Shown here: positions 2,927 through 39,527 of the stretch, piece after piece
Layout: every line of letters starts with the position of its first letter
Numbering within the stretch: the first letter of the stretch is position 1
Assembly: GCA_003389215.1 (NCBI GenBank)
Contig: QQVP01000119.1
Coordinates: 124,001-188,000 of the forward strand
Length of the DNA stretch: 64,000 bases
Direction: 5' to 3'
From: Planctomycetota bacterium
Lineage (GTDB): Bacteria; Planctomycetota; Planctomycetia; Pirellulales; UBA7805
The notes under the pieces: generated by a model
Databases searched by the model: none
Told to the model about the DNA's origin: nothing
The model's input: only the letters and a program-made list of their open reading frames with translations
Program-made: the position numbers and the translations under genes

Positions 2927-2958
2927 TTGACTCCGTAGTATGGTACAGGCCGTACAAT
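2927..2958 (+). promoter_or_regulatory. MerR-type promoter with 20-bp spacer
   Basis: A -35 TTGACT (2927-2932) and -10 TACAAT (2953-2958) are separated by 20 bp, longer than the usual 17. The spacer holds an imperfect dyad (CCGTA...TACAGG). Over-long spacers twisted into register by the regulator are characteristic of MerR-family targets. It lies just upstream of merR at 2988 and points into merR and the two genes behind it, so the unit is probably self-regulated. Confidence 0.7.
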
Positions 2959-2987
2959 GCGGTCAGAAGAGTCGAGGAGCCCAACTG

Positions 2988-3401
2988 ATGACCACTCTGA
3001 CAATTGGCAAAGTTGCCGAGCGAGCCGGCGTTGGCGTCGAGACGGTACGGTTCTACGAGCGCGAGGGTTTGATCGACGAACCGCCTCGCGGGCCGTCTGG
3101 ATACCGGCACTATCCCACATCGGTCGTGCCGCGTCTGCTGTTCATTAAGCGGGCGAAGGAACTTGGTTTCACGCTCAACGAGATCAAGGAATTGCTTTCG
3201 TTGCGGCTCGATCCAGAAACGACATGCGCGGACGTGAAGCAGCGCGCGGAGACCAAGATCGCTGATATCAAGGAAAAGATGCGTTCGCTCCGCCGCATGA
3301 AAAAGGCACTGGTGAAGTTGACCGAATCATGCAGGGGACGCGGGCCGGTTGACGATTGCCCGATCCTCGACGCCCTCGATCCGCAGGAGCGAAAGCGATG
3401 A
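2988..3401 (+). CDS. merR: MerR-family mercury-type regulator
   Basis: 137 residues from the ATG at 2988; an in-frame ATG at 2940 lies inside the promoter and is rejected. The N-terminal winged helix is canonical (TIGKVAERAGVGVETVRFYE), then a dimerisation helix. Three cysteines stand where MerR binds Hg(II): one in ETTCADV at about residue 80, and two in ESCRGRG and DDCPILD near the C-terminus, resembling the Cys82/117/126 pattern of Tn501 MerR. The stop codon overlaps the start of the MerT-like gene (ATGA at 3398-3401), so the genes are translationally coupled. It should activate the 2927-2958 promoter on Hg binding. A related thiophilic metal is the alternative ligand. Confidence 0.88.
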   Translation: MTTLTIGKVAERAGVGVETVRFYEREGLIDEPPRGPSGYRHYPTSVVPRLLFIKRAKELGFTLNEIKELLSLRLDPETTCADVKQRAETKIADIKEKMRSLRRMKKALVKLTESCRGRGPVDDCPILDALDPQERKR

Positions 3402-3850
3402 ATGGTGACAATTCGCAAAACGGTTGGCGCAGCGTCCTGGCGGCGCTGCCCGCCGTCGGCGTCACACTGGTGCCACGATTCACGTGACCCTGCACGTTGC
3501 CCGCCTATGCGGGACTCATCAGTTCGATGGGCTTGTCATTCTTGATGAAAACAACCTACCTGCTGCCGCTAACGGCCATGTTTCTGGTGATTGCCGTCGC
3601 TTCGCTGGCATTTCGCGCCGATTGCCGTCGCGGTTACGGGCCGTTTGCAGTCGGCCTCGCGGCAGCCGCGCTGTTGTTGGCGGGCAAGTTTCTTCTGGAA
3701 TCGAATCCCGTGATGTACGCCGGTGCGGGATTGTTGTTTGCGGCATCTCTTTGGAATGCCTGGCCGCGCCGCACGGCCAAGAGCGACTCTGCCACTCCCA
3801 CGGAGTCCCTCCATCAAATTGGGAGCAACGAAAGTGAGTGTCAACCATGA
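3398..3850 (+). CDS. MerT-like mercury transporter with in-frame TGA (candidate selenoprotein)
   Basis: The frame runs from the ATG at 3398 to a stop at 3850 but is interrupted by TGA at 3485-3487 (codon 30). With read-through it is 150 residues and has about four hydrophobic segments. Family members that I recall have a T-C-P-x-C-x-P-A-Y-A-G motif at the end of the first membrane segment. Here the sequence reads T-(TGA)-P-C-T-L-P-A-Y-A-G, so the TGA stands at the first conserved metal-binding Cys. The frame is the same on both sides. The remainder (YLLPLTAMFLV, KFLLESNPVMYAG, SLWNAWPRR) looks intact and undecayed. Either selenocysteine is inserted or the gene is broken; a +1/-1 indel pair between 3485 and 3500 would restore C-P-A-R-W. 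It overlaps merR and the next gene by 4 bases. A downstream TTG (3497) start would lose the motif. Confidence 0.65.
3485..3531 (+). promoter_or_regulatory. candidate UGA-selenocysteine codon and SECIS-like hairpin
   Basis: After the in-frame TGA (3485-3487) a 6-bp stem CTCATC/GATGGG (3515-3520 with 3526-3531, one G-U pair) closes the 5-nt loop AGTTC, whose second base is G. The loop begins 33 nt after the TGA, inside the roughly 16-37 nt range used by bacterial SECIS elements. A closer hairpin CCCGC/GCGGG (3500-3513) has no G in its loop and is explained by the codons for PAYAG. Hairpins arise by chance, so this is supportive only. Confidence 0.4.
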
Positions 3851-4116
3851 CCACGAAACGACAAATCGAAGTGTTCAGTGCCGGCTGCCCAGCGTGCCAA
3901 GACGCGATCACGATGGTCCAGGACACCGCGTGCCCGTCGTGTGAAGTAGCGGTGCTCGACATGAACGACGCCAATGTCGCCAGCCGCGCCAAGAGTCTCG
4001 GCGTTCGATCCGTACCTGCCGTCGTAATCGACGGCAAACTGTCCGATTGCTGCACCGGCCGCGGACCGGACGAAACCACCTTGCGGGCGGCGGGGATCGG
4101 ACAACCGACCGCGTAG
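3847..4116 (+). CDS. small thioredoxin/glutaredoxin-like protein of the mer unit
   Basis: 89 residues from the ATG at 3847; a GTG at 3838 is an alternative. It has a compact thioredoxin fold: a first strand QIEVFSAG, redox motif CPAC, and the cis-Pro strand VRSVPAVVIDGK. Extra cysteines (CPSC and CC at SDCCTGRG) suggest metal handling rather than simple disulfide exchange. No signal peptide is seen, so it is cytoplasmic. It overlaps the end of the MerT-like gene by 4 bases, so it is the last cistron of the merR unit. A likely role is to take Hg(II) or another thiophilic metal from the membrane protein or reduce its thiols, in place of MerP. This role is inferred from context. Confidence 0.85.
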   Translation: MTTKRQIEVFSAGCPACQDAITMVQDTACPSCEVAVLDMNDANVASRAKSLGVRSVPAVVIDGKLSDCCTGRGPDETTLRAAGIGQPTA

Positions 4117-4118
4117 CC

Positions 4119-4517
4119 TCACTTGTCCAACGACTCAAGTACGTGGCACGCCCGGCGCGGGTTGCTCGTTTGACACTTGGTGAGCGCGCCACTCAGGACG
4201 CGTTTGACTTGTCGCAAGTCTTTCAGGCGCTGGTCGATTTCGGCAAGACGGTCTTCAATCAACTGCTGGACGTCGCCGCAGCACGGAACGCTGCCGCCTT
4301 CGCCCAACAGTTCCCGCACGTCGTCGAGCGTGAATCCGATCGCCTGCGCCGCGCGGATGAATTTCACCCGCTGAAGCGAATCGTCGCTGTACAGCCGGTA
4401 ATTCCCCGCGCTGCGGTCTTCCGGCTTGACGAGCCCGATCCGCTCGTAGTATCGGACGGTTGTCGTGGGGATTCCCGCTGCTTTGGCCAGTTGGCTGATC
4501 GTGAATTGTCGGCTCAT
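4119..4517 (-). CDS. MerR-family metal regulator
   Basis: 132 residues from the ATG at 4517 (GTG at 4526 possible). The winged-helix N-terminus reads FTISQLAKAAGIPTTTVRYYE, followed by a long coiled-coil dimerisation helix. Cysteines lie at PCCGDV before the coil, and at LTKCQTS and RRACHVLE near the C-terminus, fitting a thiophilic metal site but spaced differently from the merR at 2988. It ends 2 bp from the thioredoxin-like gene (convergent) and is divergent from the large MerTP fusion gene, whose promoter carries a MerR-type 20-bp spacer. It is therefore the likely regulator of that gene. Hg(II) is the best guess; Zn/Cd/Pb sensing is possible. Confidence 0.88.
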   Translation of the reverse strand: MSRQFTISQLAKAAGIPTTTVRYYERIGLVKPEDRSAGNYRLYSDDSLQRVKFIRAAQAIGFTLDDVRELLGEGGSVPCCGDVQQLIEDRLAEIDQRLKDLRQVKRVLSGALTKCQTSNPRRACHVLESLDK

Positions 4518-4559
4518 CGGACGCACTACGGCAGTGAAAAGGAAATCTCAGAGATGCCC

Positions 4560-4591
4560 TTGACCTTACACTTGGGTGCAATCTCGATAAT
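4560..4591 (+). promoter_or_regulatory. MerR-type promoter with 20-bp spacer and dyad
   Basis: A -35 TTGACC (4560-4565) and -10 GATAAT (4586-4591) are 20 bp apart. The spacer contains the dyad TTACAC-TTGG-GTGCAA (4566-4581), 5 of 6 arm bases matching. This is the standard layout for a MerR-family target. It lies between the divergent MerR gene at 4119-4517 and the gene at 4638, and reads toward the latter. Confidence 0.75.
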
Positions 4592-4637: not shown

Positions 4638-6350
4638 ATGTTCCAAGCGATGAAGATGGAAAAACAGTTGGTTTGTCCTTCGTGTGGTAACAAGGGCCGC
4701 GCAGTGGGCGTGGTGACGTTGCGGACGTTACTTAACGACGAACACGCCTCGCAGTTCGACTCGGAAGCAGATTCGTGTCGTCAACATGACGGGGCGATGG
4801 CAACAGGTTGTACGCCCAACCGGCACGACACCGGTTGGCGGTTCTGCGACTCGTCTAACTGCGACGTCGTTTATTTCGCGGAACAGAGCGACGCGACCTT
4901 TGCCAAGTCGGACCTGCGCGTCCAAGTCGGCGTCAAAGAAACTACCGGCGAGCGACCGCTCTGTTATTGTTTCGGGCACTCCGTAACCAGTGTCAAGCAA
5001 GAGTTGCGCGGCAAGGGTCACAGCGACGCGCTGGAAGATATCCGCGCGAAAATGAAGTCCCCTGGTTGTCGCTGCGAGACAGAGAATCCATCCGGCTCCT
5101 GCTGCCTGGGAAGTGTGGCCAAGGGCGTCAAAATTGCTCAAGAGGAATTAGGGATGACGGATATGAGTCCACAAGCGAACGTTTCTGCTTCGCAGTCGTC
5201 TGGGAGCCGCGGTGAATTGATCGCCAAGTTGGGAGCGGTTGGTTCCGCGATCGTGGCATCCGCTTGTTGCTGGCTACCGCTGGTGCTGTTGGCGGTCGGC
5301 GTTTCAGGAGCCGGCGTCGCTGCCACGCTGGAGTCGTATCGCCCGATATTCGTTACCGCTACGATCGGCTTCCTCGGAGCGGCCTTCTACTTCACCTATC
5401 GGCCTCGCAGGACGGCCGACTCAAAACAGGGCTGTTGTCCCACGGAGTCCACCGCTTCAAAAGATTGCTGTGCCAATTCCGGCAAGCGCCGGTTCAACAT
5501 GATGACTGTGAACAAGGCGATGCTGTGGGTCGTGACCGTTCTAGCCATTGCGTTCTTGTTCTTCCCCAGCTACGTCGGCGCACTGCTCGGCACAAGCGGC
5601 GGCGAGCAAATAACCGACAACATGAATACGGCTGTGTTCAAGATCGACGGAATGACCTGCGAGGGTTGTGCGTCGACCGCCGAGAAGGCTATCCGTGACG
5701 TGCCGGACGTCGTTGCGGTCGAAGTTGATTACGAGAACGGGCGGGCGGTTGTCGGCACAGAGGTTTGCTGTCCCGTACCTCACGACGCGATCATCAAGGC
5801 GCTGCAACAAGCCGGTTATGAAGCACGTGTTTCCGAAAGCGACGAATCACTTCAGGATCTCTCCACCGACGCCCGTGAGTTCAAACAAGCCTTTAACGCG
5901 GCAAAAGGACGAGTCCGTCTCGTCATGCTTGTCTCGCCTGGCTGACCGATGTGCCGAGACGGGGCCAGGCTGGTCCACGAAAAAGTGATTGCTCCAATCA
6001 ATACGGACCAACTCAAGGTCTTCGTGATCTGGACGCCGCGCTATCCAGGTGACAATCGCAAGCGAGCCGTTGCGGCGGCCGGCATCGTCCCAGATTCGCG
6101 AGCAACGCACTTCTGGGACGCCAACGGCTATTTGCCGAGAGAGTACGGAGGAATTCTCGACCTTCCAGAAGGCGACCAATTTGCCTGGGACACCTACATG
6201 GTCTTCGGCCGCGGCACCGAGTGGAACCATGCCCTGCCGCGCCCTCACAACTGGATGCATCAAATGTCCAAATCGCTCGGACGTGACGATCCCCGTTGGC
6301 TCGACGGCGATGAGTTTGCCAAAACCGTCGCAAGAATGGTTTCGGAATGA
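4638..6350 (+). CDS. CopZ-N/MerT/MerP/thioredoxin-like fusion with in-frame TGA (candidate selenoprotein)
   Basis: The frame is continuous from the ATG at 4638 to 6350 (570 residues) except for TGA at 5943-5945, codon 436. Order of parts: residues about 8-165 form a Cys-rich region like the N-terminal Zn/[2Fe-2S] part of Archaeoglobus CopZ (CPSCG, FCDSSNC, LCYCFGHS, CRCETEN); about 190-260 form a MerT unit with the paired Cys SACCWLPLV; a third membrane segment lies at about 290-312; about 325-395 form a MerP-like HMA domain (GMTCEGCAS plus a CC pair); about 405-570 form a thioredoxin-like domain. Its active site reads SPG-(TGA)-PMC, giving U-x-x-C if selenocysteine is inserted. The strand before the TGA (VRLVMLVSPG) and the domain after it (LKVFVIWTPRYPGD) both look intact. 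Otherwise the 5' part ends at 5945 and the 3' part (ATG 5949) lacks the first strand and Cys. Hg(II) import and handling is inferred. Confidence 0.75.
5943..5978 (+). promoter_or_regulatory. candidate UGA-selenocysteine codon and SECIS-like hairpin
   Basis: The in-frame TGA is at 5943-5945. A 5-bp stem GGGCC/GGTCC (5962-5966 with 5972-5976, one G-U pair) closes the 5-nt loop AGGCT, starting 21 nt after the TGA. Beyond it, a bulged A and two more pairs (CG/CG) can extend the stem. The loop resembles AGGUCU of the E. coli fdhF SECIS, and the distance and the G at loop position 2 fit bacterial SECIS rules. Confidence 0.55.
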
Positions 6351-37485: not shown

Positions 37486-38859
37486 TCAAAACAGCCCCAC
37501 CAGATCCCACCACCAATGGCCGGTGGTCAAAGCGAGTGCCAGTCCCGTCACGGTTACAATCGCGCCCGGAACGAGCATGTCCTTGACCTTCAGTTCACCG
37601 GAACTAAACGCGATGGCGTTCGGTGGTGTCGAGACAGGCAGCGGCATGGCCAGCGTACAAGCGAATGCGACGCCCACGAGGACCGGCGACAGATTCTCGA
37701 CGCTCAAGCCCAAGATGATCGGCATCAGCAAGTTGGCCGTGGCCGTGTTGCTCATCACCGACGACATCAGGCAGGCGGCTGAACCAAGGATGACCAGCAG
37801 CACAAAACAATCCGAATCTTCGACCGGCAGTCGCTCGACCAGCCAGGCGGCCAGGCCACTAACAGAAATGATTGTCCCCAAGCACAAACCTCCGCCCATC
37901 ATCAGCAACACGTCCCAGGATATCGTTCGCAAATCCTTTACCGTCAAGATCTTTGCGCCGAAAAACGCGACGACTGGAAGCAGCGCCACGGTACCCGCTG
38001 CCAGACCGTGCATCCCACTCGTTACCCAGCCAACTACAGTGGCCGCCGACACGGCTACGACGACCACGGCTGACGGTGACCACTGGATTCGGGCGGTTTC
38101 GCCGCTTAACTCGATCGTTGTTTGCCGGCCGCGAAAGACGAGCATCAAAACGGCCCACGCGAAGCCGATCATGACAACGACACCTGGCACGCCGATGAGC
38201 ATCCACATTCCAAAACTGGGCGCAAATCCAGCGTGCTGCATGTACTGAATGGCGATCGCGTTGGGTGGACTGCCGATCGGCGTTCCCAAGCCACCGATGT
38301 TTGCCGCAAAGGGAACGGCCAACAGGATTGCTTTGCGATGAGCATCGTCGGCCGGCAATTGTTGCGCGATCGGCAGACAAATCGCGAGCATCATCGCGGC
38401 GGTGGCCGTGTTGCTGAGCCACATCGACAACACAGCCGTCACCGCCATCACGCCGATGAGCATGACCGGAACGCGACGGCCGGTGCGAGCGAGCATCCAG
38501 CGGGCCATCTGTTCATCGAGCCGATACTTGTGCAGAGCGGCCGAGAGAACGAAGCCGCCCAGAAACAGCAGAATCACGTCTGAGAAGAACGGCGCGAGCA
38601 GTTCACTCTCCGAAATCGCCATCCCGTCACGGCGCATCCGCGGCACGAGCCATACCAGACCGAGCCCAAGCACCACGAAGCTCGTCACAAACAGCGGCAC
38701 GGCCTCGCTAATCCACAGGGTCGCGGCGATCAGCAAGATTACAAAGGCCACCTGCGCCGGACCTGACAGTTCCCAGCGGGAATAGACCTCGAACACGCCA
38801 GACAGAACAAATGCGACGATCAGGCCGGCGACCAGCAGTGGTACGATTGACTTACGCAT
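37486..38859 (-). CDS. DASS-family (SLC13-like) sodium/anion transporter
   Basis: 457 residues from the ATG at 38859, which overlaps the response regulator stop by 1 base (TTA/CAT); the frame continues to 38880. About 12 membrane segments with the family's SNT motif twice (SMWLSNTATAAMMLAI and SSVMSNTATANLLMP) and the GTPIGSPPNAIAIQY loop. These carriers take up dicarboxylates, sulfate or citrate with Na+. Substrate is not assignable. Coupling to the response regulator suggests signal-controlled uptake. Confidence 0.88.
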   Translation of the reverse strand: MRKSIVPLLVAGLIVAFVLSGVFEVYSRWELSGPAQVAFVILLIAATLWISEAVPLFVTSFVVLGLGLVWLVPRMRRDGMAISESELLAPFFSDVILLFLGGFVLSAALHKYRLDEQMARWMLARTGRRVPVMLIGVMAVTAVLSMWLSNTATAAMMLAICLPIAQQLPADDAHRKAILLAVPFAANIGGLGTPIGSPPNAIAIQYMQHAGFAPSFGMWMLIGVPGVVVMIGFAWAVLMLVFRGRQTTIELSGETARIQWSPSAVVVVAVSAATVVGWVTSGMHGLAAGTVALLPVVAFFGAKILTVKDLRTISWDVLLMMGGGLCLGTIISVSGLAAWLVERLPVEDSDCFVLLVILGSAACLMSSVMSNTATANLLMPIILGLSVENLSPVLVGVAFACTLAMPLPVSTPPNAIAFSSGELKVKDMLVPGAIVTVTGLALALTTGHWWWDLVGLF

Positions 38860-39527
38860 TAACCGTTTTCGAGCACCCATTGGACAGCGGCGCGGTTGAG
38901 TTCGGCGGCGTTCTTCAAGTCGAGTTTGCGCTTGATGTTCTCGCGGTGCGTGTCGATCGTGTGCGTGCTCAGGTGCAGGAGGTTGGCAATTTCGCCGGTT
39001 GTCAGCCCTTCGCCAATCAATCGAAAGACTTCCAACTCGCGATCAGAGAGCTTGTCCACGGATGGGGCCGCTTCGTCGCTCGGCCGGCCGACCGAGCGGC
39101 TCAACACACGCTGGCTCATTTCTGGGCTCAGGTAGACTTTGCCGTCCAGGATCTGGCGAATCGCTTCCAGAACTTGCTCTGGAGCCTCTTGCTTCGTGAT
39201 GTATCCGTCGGCTCCGGCTTGGAGCGCGCGATCGGCGTAGAGCGATTCCGTGTACATCGTGTGGACCAGGACCTTGGGTCGCGTCCCCGCGGGACCGGTC
39301 GATTTCAGGCGTTTGATCAGATCAACGCCGTGACTGCTCTTCAACGAAATGTCGACAATCACCAAGTCGGGACGCAGTTGTTTGACTTGCTCTAGCGCTT
39401 CGTCCATATCGGCCGCTTCGCCGCACACTTCCAGACCCGCTTCACCGGCAATACGACCGGCAAGGCCCTCGCGGACCATCGGGTGGTCGTCGACGATCAG
39501 GATGCTGGCGCGAGTTTTCTTTTTCAT
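38859..39527 (-). CDS. NarL/FixJ-type response regulator
   Basis: 222 residues from the ATG at 39527; the frame extends to 39632 without receiver character. Receiver domain: acidic pair in ILIVDDHPMVREG, phospho-site Asp in LVIVDISLKSSHG, Lys in GYITKQEAP. The C-terminal LuxR-type HTH reads SDRELEVFRLIGEGLTTGEI. The only histidine kinase in the window, at 45699-47948, is of the NarX/NarL-partner class (HisKA_3), so the two may pair across 6 kb, though that is inferred. The stop overlaps the DASS transporter start. Confidence 0.9.
   Translation of the reverse strand: MKKKTRASILIVDDHPMVREGLAGRIAGEAGLEVCGEAADMDEALEQVKQLRPDLVIVDISLKSSHGVDLIKRLKSTGPAGTRPKVLVHTMYTESLYADRALQAGADGYITKQEAPEQVLEAIRQILDGKVYLSPEMSQRVLSRSVGRPSDEAAPSVDKLSDRELEVFRLIGEGLTTGEIANLLHLSTHTIDTHRENIKRKLDLKNAAELNRAAVQWVLENG

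Follow-up and report, generated by a model that had tools for sequence, protein, structure and literature searches.

The window, the whole stretch of 64,000 nucleotides analysed here from contig QQVP01000119.1 of a Planctomycetota bacterium, contains a gene that probably encodes a 570-residue MerT-type importer under MerR control, with an in-frame UGA decoded as selenocysteine and a U-x-x-C domain that, judging from sequence comparison, would serve the cysteines of the HMA and MerT domains to which it is fused. The domain represents an undescribed candidate selenoprotein family that Pfam and NCBIfam do not cover and that ordinary gene callers probably truncate. The family is tied to a MerR-controlled metal importer, and selenocysteine and cysteine forms of the MerT fusion coexist in one bacterial order, which makes possible a direct test of what selenium gains over sulfur in soft-metal handling.

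The gene runs in a single frame from the ATG at 4638 to its own stop, TGA, at 6348-6350, and the TGA at codon 436 (5943-5945) is the only break in it, as an earlier note on this DNA had described; the peptides VRLVMLVSPG and PMCRDGA lie on either side of this codon as reported there. Twelve TGA codons in the window have at least 300 open codons upstream, and only the one at codon 436 also has at least 130 open codons downstream. Frame length alone is no proof of readthrough, because 106 of the 1977 TGA codons in the window (around 5%) are followed by 130 open codons. The GC content at the three codon positions is alike on the two sides of the TGA (0.58/0.49/0.67 and 0.63/0.46/0.68), and comparison of the downstream part with its relative in genome G448 gives changes of 0.39/0.27/0.57 at codon positions 1, 2 and 3, which is a coding pattern. 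These observations bear out the earlier claim that the domain is intact on both sides of the codon, its downstream half being a real domain. Decoding of UGA as tryptophan was ruled out, since the terminator of the gene is itself TGA and homologs carry Cys at the internal position.

The C-terminal domain was searched against 392 genomes of the phylum, and relatives were found at 22-35% identity. TGA stands at the same codon in seven relatives, which are 28-55% identical to the window domain, and Cys in four. Exactly one TGA, at this codon, is present in each of L023, L024, L025, L026 and L031 (SPT-UGA-x-x-C); the G448 site reads SP-x-UGA-x-x-C (SPGUPMC), and L021, from a Rhodopirellula MAG, has TGA at the same place (GQGUPLC) in a gene apparently broken by an upstream insertion and a frame change. 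The reading frame is kept past the TGA in six of the seven. Cys occupies the UGA column in L028, L029, L030 and G756, which agrees with the assignment of the TGA to the catalytic Cys position of a CxxC motif; homologs that likewise stop here, a concern raised beforehand, were not what the alignment returned, the relatives having either TGA with a continuing frame or Cys.

Two of these relatives come from the same order as the window, with domains 55% identical and carrying TGA (G448) or 48% identical and carrying Cys (G756), and searches at the level of class and order gave no clear matches beyond them. In G756 a MerR gene is followed by one open frame that encodes a DF-family domain, MerT, and this same domain with the site SPR-C-PAC (codon TGC); there is thus a MerT fusion in which Cys takes the very place of the window UGA. 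The N-terminal domain of this fusion (L058:3421-4710) scores over the cut-off of NF049942, the DF family (seleno)protein. L027 is cut off by the end of its contig and begins immediately downstream of the active site. Another gene, L036:3-851 in G317, joins the same thioredoxin-like domain to a C-terminal HMA-like domain, on a contig that starts just after the active-site position. A weak match, L052, looks like another redoxin and was set aside, and searches of plasmid, phage and IMG/VR sequences with the C-terminal domain gave nothing informative. Several relatives sit away from any evident metal gene, as judged by eye, which suggests that the domain is not restricted to metals.

The source assembly (5.5 Mb, 93% complete) was scanned for selenocysteine genes, and selA, selB, selD and tRNA-Sec, all listed for checking in the earlier note, are present. 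The tRNA-Sec scores 69.6 bits against a gathering score of 47 and is also called by ARAGORN, with anticodon tca; SelB (370.9 bits) adjoins SelA (554.8 bits). SelD occurs in four copies, each with an internal TGA, three of which read as HGGGUACK with a GGUC-loop hairpin further downstream, the hairpin being judged by eye. This machinery and the TGA-containing selD genes make it very likely that UGA is read as selenocysteine in other genes of this organism. SelA and tRNA-Sec are also present in nine other genomes bearing the domain. The selD copies at G000:C1:118221, C97:7857 and C80:11045, each with its internal TGA, have genes for a LysR regulator and a TauE/SafE-like protein upstream, so that LysR-TauE-selD forms a repeated module; RND metal-efflux genes are found close to the copies on C1 and C97.

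Downstream of codon 436 we find the GGGCC/GGTCC hairpin with the loop AGGCT that had been noticed before, with one correction: the distance of 21 nt given for it is that to the start of the loop, and the stem starts 16 nt after the TGA. Of the eight TGA genes (the window gene and its seven relatives), seven carry a hairpin whose loop lies 20-22 nt past the UGA, and the remaining one, L021, is doubtful; the hairpin is absent in all four Cys homologs tested. When the same peptides were recoded synonymously, the window hairpin gave P = 0.02 and the eight TGA genes combined P = 0.0014, a combined signal that comes mostly from L023, the window and G448. The stability of the window hairpin alone is not above that of shuffled sequence, and an Rfam scan gave nothing informative. 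The predicted SECIS-like hairpin, weak for the window sequence by itself, thus recurs in the TGA relatives, and the comparison lends moderate support to the proposed selenocysteine decoding.

Four domains are predicted in the chain (Table 1). The MerT-like domain has SACCWLP in its first helix and CC pairs in a loop. Neither Pfam nor NCBIfam has a family that scores over its cut-off on residues 410-570 or on the related domains; profile matches around the active site are to 1a8l (E 3e-4) and YkuV (2b5x; E 0.02), and the Redoxin model is at its cut-off on the G448 protein. AlphaFold run without an alignment reached a pLDDT of 36 and gave no usable model. The active-site region and the next strand align with YkuV/TlpA-like and PDO thioredoxin-like proteins; the family differs from these in having WD in the cis-proline region and, in most members, a conserved P-x-P-x-x-W-x-H-Q tail. 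The invariant Asp of this WD appears at the expected position of the thioredoxin cis-proline in an alignment by eye that extends the YkuV match. Loss of the cis-proline lets thioredoxin active sites bind metal. Given the known topology of MerT, the signal-like N-terminal starts of most homologs of the domain and the lipoprotein signal of the related G448 protein, the HMA and selenothioredoxin domains would lie outside the inner membrane.

Table 1. Predicted features of the locus, in window coordinates.
Feature	Position	Strand	Details
Second MerR regulator	2940..3401	+	TIGR02051 142.5 bits, just below cut-off 150.85; Cys spacing 35 and 9
MerC-like membrane protein	3497..3850	+	PF03203 29.6 bits, cut-off 27.6
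Small thioredoxin-like protein (CPAC)	3838..4116	+	PF13192 39.1 bits, over cut-off
Divergent MerR regulator	4119..4526	-	Best model TIGR02051 110.9 bits, below cut-off 150.85; Cys spacing 35 and 9
MerR-type promoter	4560..4591	+	TTGACC, 20-bp spacer with dyad TTACAC-TTGG-GTGCAA, GATAAT
Candidate selenoprotein gene	4638..6350	+	570 residues: CopZ-N-like, MerT, HMA and selenothioredoxin domains
CopZ-N-like metal / [2Fe-2S] domain	4638..5117	+	Residues about 1-160; PF18423 52.8 bits, over cut-off; NF047645 100 bits, at cut-off
MerT-like membrane domain	5202..5600	+	Residues about 189-321; PF02411 46.2 bits, cut-off 32.9
HMA (MerP/CopZ-like) domain	5634..5822	+	Residues 333-395, GMTCEGC; PF00403 51.7 bits, over cut-off
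Selenothioredoxin-like domain	5865..6347	+	Residues 410-570; profile matches to thioredoxin-like structures
Predicted UGA to selenocysteine, residue 436	5943..5945	+	First position of U-x-x-C site SPG-U-PMC
SECIS-like hairpin GGGCC-AGGCT-GGTCC	5962..5976	+	Loop from 21-22 nt after UGA

The promoter upstream of the gene has the layout expected for MerR control, which is established for the MerR family, and the same MerR-type promoter is found upstream of the homologs in G448, in G756 and on the plasmid pK2D_1 of Planctomycetes bacterium K2D. The Hg MerR model gives the best score for all four MerR proteins tested, none of which reaches the cut-off, and the Cys spacing of both window copies is that of Hg(II) MerR proteins. 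CusA/CusB-like, copper-type efflux genes were recognised by eye around the locus. MerA over the cut-off was not found in the 93%-complete assembly, the best match scoring 394 bits against 454 in a frame that lacks the C-terminal CC; the usual route for Hg(II) after import is therefore missing, and the metal may be another. Of the marks of a classical mer operon the locus has a MerR regulator, below the curated cut-off, and a MerR-type promoter, with no MerA over the cut-off in the assembly. Taken together, the neighbouring genes point to mercury as the likely metal.

In G448 the MerT-HMA part is a separate protein of 396 residues, 58% identical to the first part of the window protein, and directly after it comes a lipoprotein that combines an HMA domain with a CVPC thioredoxin and with the same SPGUPMC domain. 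The lipoprotein signal is MSRFACIALLCLPVAIVGC, the CVPC domain resembles the DsbD C-terminus (47 bits), and both metal-binding cysteines of the HMA domain are UGA (UMLU). The complete G448 chromosome contains no tRNA-Sec and no SelA over the cut-off, so this copy is apparently unreadable through its UGA codons and appears stranded, an indication that modules of this kind can reach hosts unable to read them. The three-Sec frame (L053:7481-8743; UMLU, UPMC) is flanked by terminase- and portal-like genes, and could belong to a prophage or a transfer element.

We propose that UGA-436 is decoded as selenocysteine by tRNA-Sec and SelB, aided by the downstream hairpin, as the comparative data suggest. 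The product would be one chain with a cytoplasmic CopZ-N-like domain, a membrane MerT domain, a periplasmic HMA domain and a periplasmic TlpA/ResA-like domain with a Sec-x-x-Cys active site, and the conserved promoter suggests that a MerR regulator turns the gene on. In the oxidising periplasm the U-x-x-C domain may keep the CxxC of the HMA domain and the CC of MerT reduced, or exchange metal with them; Hg(II) or a similar soft metal would then be captured and handed inward to the CopZ-N-like domain. The redox part of this scheme is favoured by the DsbD-like domain that adjoins the selenothioredoxin in G448, and the metal-binding part by the UxxU HMA domain there and the apparent loss of the cis-proline.

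If the UGA were an ordinary stop, the gene would encode a 435-residue CopZ-N/MerT/HMA protein, and the remainder would be a separate frame or one dead through decay or base error. Homologs that end after the HMA domain do exist on pK2D_1 and in G448, and an ATG (5949) follows two codons past the TGA; however, termination would fall inside the thioredoxin domain, after its first strand and before its second active-site Cys, and the downstream codons keep a coding pattern. Stopping and restarting at this ATG was rejected, since most relatives lack an ATG at this place and the domain would come apart into two pieces; in the window, no ribosome site can be seen ahead of the ATG. A base error at 5943 is unlikely because seven diverged relatives have TGA at the same codon, and their conserved frame in six cases, together with Cys in four others, one of them a MerT fusion in one frame, makes an ordinary stop highly improbable.

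Given selenocysteine decoding, the function of the domain and the identity of the metal can each be read differently. The selenothioredoxin may be mainly a metal site, whose Sec and Cys would take up Hg(II) or a different soft metal and hand it on to HMA and MerT, redox turnover being slight. Its fusion to MerT and HMA, its pairing with a UxxU HMA domain in G448, and the Asp of WD that apparently replaces the cis-proline agree with such a role, which we regard as possible but not the favoured one: relatives of the domain occur outside metal loci, the DsbD-like thioredoxin beside it in G448 suggests electron flow, and the cis-proline claim comes from an alignment by eye without a structure. That the metal is not mercury at all, with the protein importing or chaperoning copper or another metal that CopZ-N reduces, and the selenothioredoxin providing redox balance, is rather unlikely. 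The CopZ-N domain at its NCBIfam cut-off, the efflux genes seen by eye nearby and the missing MerA are consistent with this; against it stand a MerT domain over its Pfam cut-off, an adjacent MerC-like gene, four MerR proteins that fit the Hg model best (below cut-off), and Hg-type Cys spacing in both window copies. More doubtful still is a scheme in which Sec-x-x-Cys, without the usual cis-proline, would be a periplasmic mercury ligand that loads the MerP-MerT importer to which it is fused, the organism having no MerA; were it true, selenium itself would be part of the detoxification chemistry. The reading that we prefer remains the importer whose U-x-x-C domain serves the HMA and MerT cysteines by reduction or metal exchange.

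The suggestion that a mercury-handling selenoprotein would be novel was too strong, as predictions of MerT- and MerP-type selenoproteins go back to 2008 (PMC2398784, 2008; PMC9312934; PMC13188914), and NCBIfam holds NF045683 and NF041115. The MerT/CopZ fusion-like family NF045683 and the earlier 'putative mercuric transport protein' selenoproteins likewise combine a MerT-type transporter with HMA in a predicted selenoprotein; however, the window protein scores 62.5 bits on NF045683, for which the cut-off is 375. For the mercuric transport selenoprotein a C/SxxU motif is listed (PMC13188914), whereas MerT and HMA of the window keep Cys, and the predicted selenocysteine is in the added thioredoxin-like domain. 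MerTP fusions (NF033556) also join MerT to a MerP-like HMA domain, but the window protein reaches 99.7 bits, below the cut-off of 180, and has the extra CopZ-N and selenothioredoxin domains. Thioredoxin-like UxxC selenoproteins (Trx-like, GOS_C, SaoT and others; PMC13188914) have selenocysteine as the first residue of UxxC in a thioredoxin-like fold, as is predicted for the window domain; on this domain and its relatives, all NCBIfam models stay below their cut-offs. As far as the libraries and literature searched show, the latter not including the paper by Haft and Gwadz on organometal biochemistry and selenoproteins, what is new is the thioredoxin-like family, its MerT-HMA fusion, the naturally occurring Cys version and the copy that appears stranded in G448.

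Further relatives of the MerT-HMA and HMA-thioredoxin genes were seen. The pK2D_1 homolog of the first part ends after the HMA domain, without the selenothioredoxin. The near-identical contigs G000:C97 and C80 (L042, L043) both end inside a G448-like HMA-thioredoxin gene, the metal-site half of which lies beyond the contig ends. A CopZ-N/MerT/HMA gene at 37939-39174 of CP036351.1 (L059) is annotated as merA (mercuric reductase), an annotation that looks wrong.
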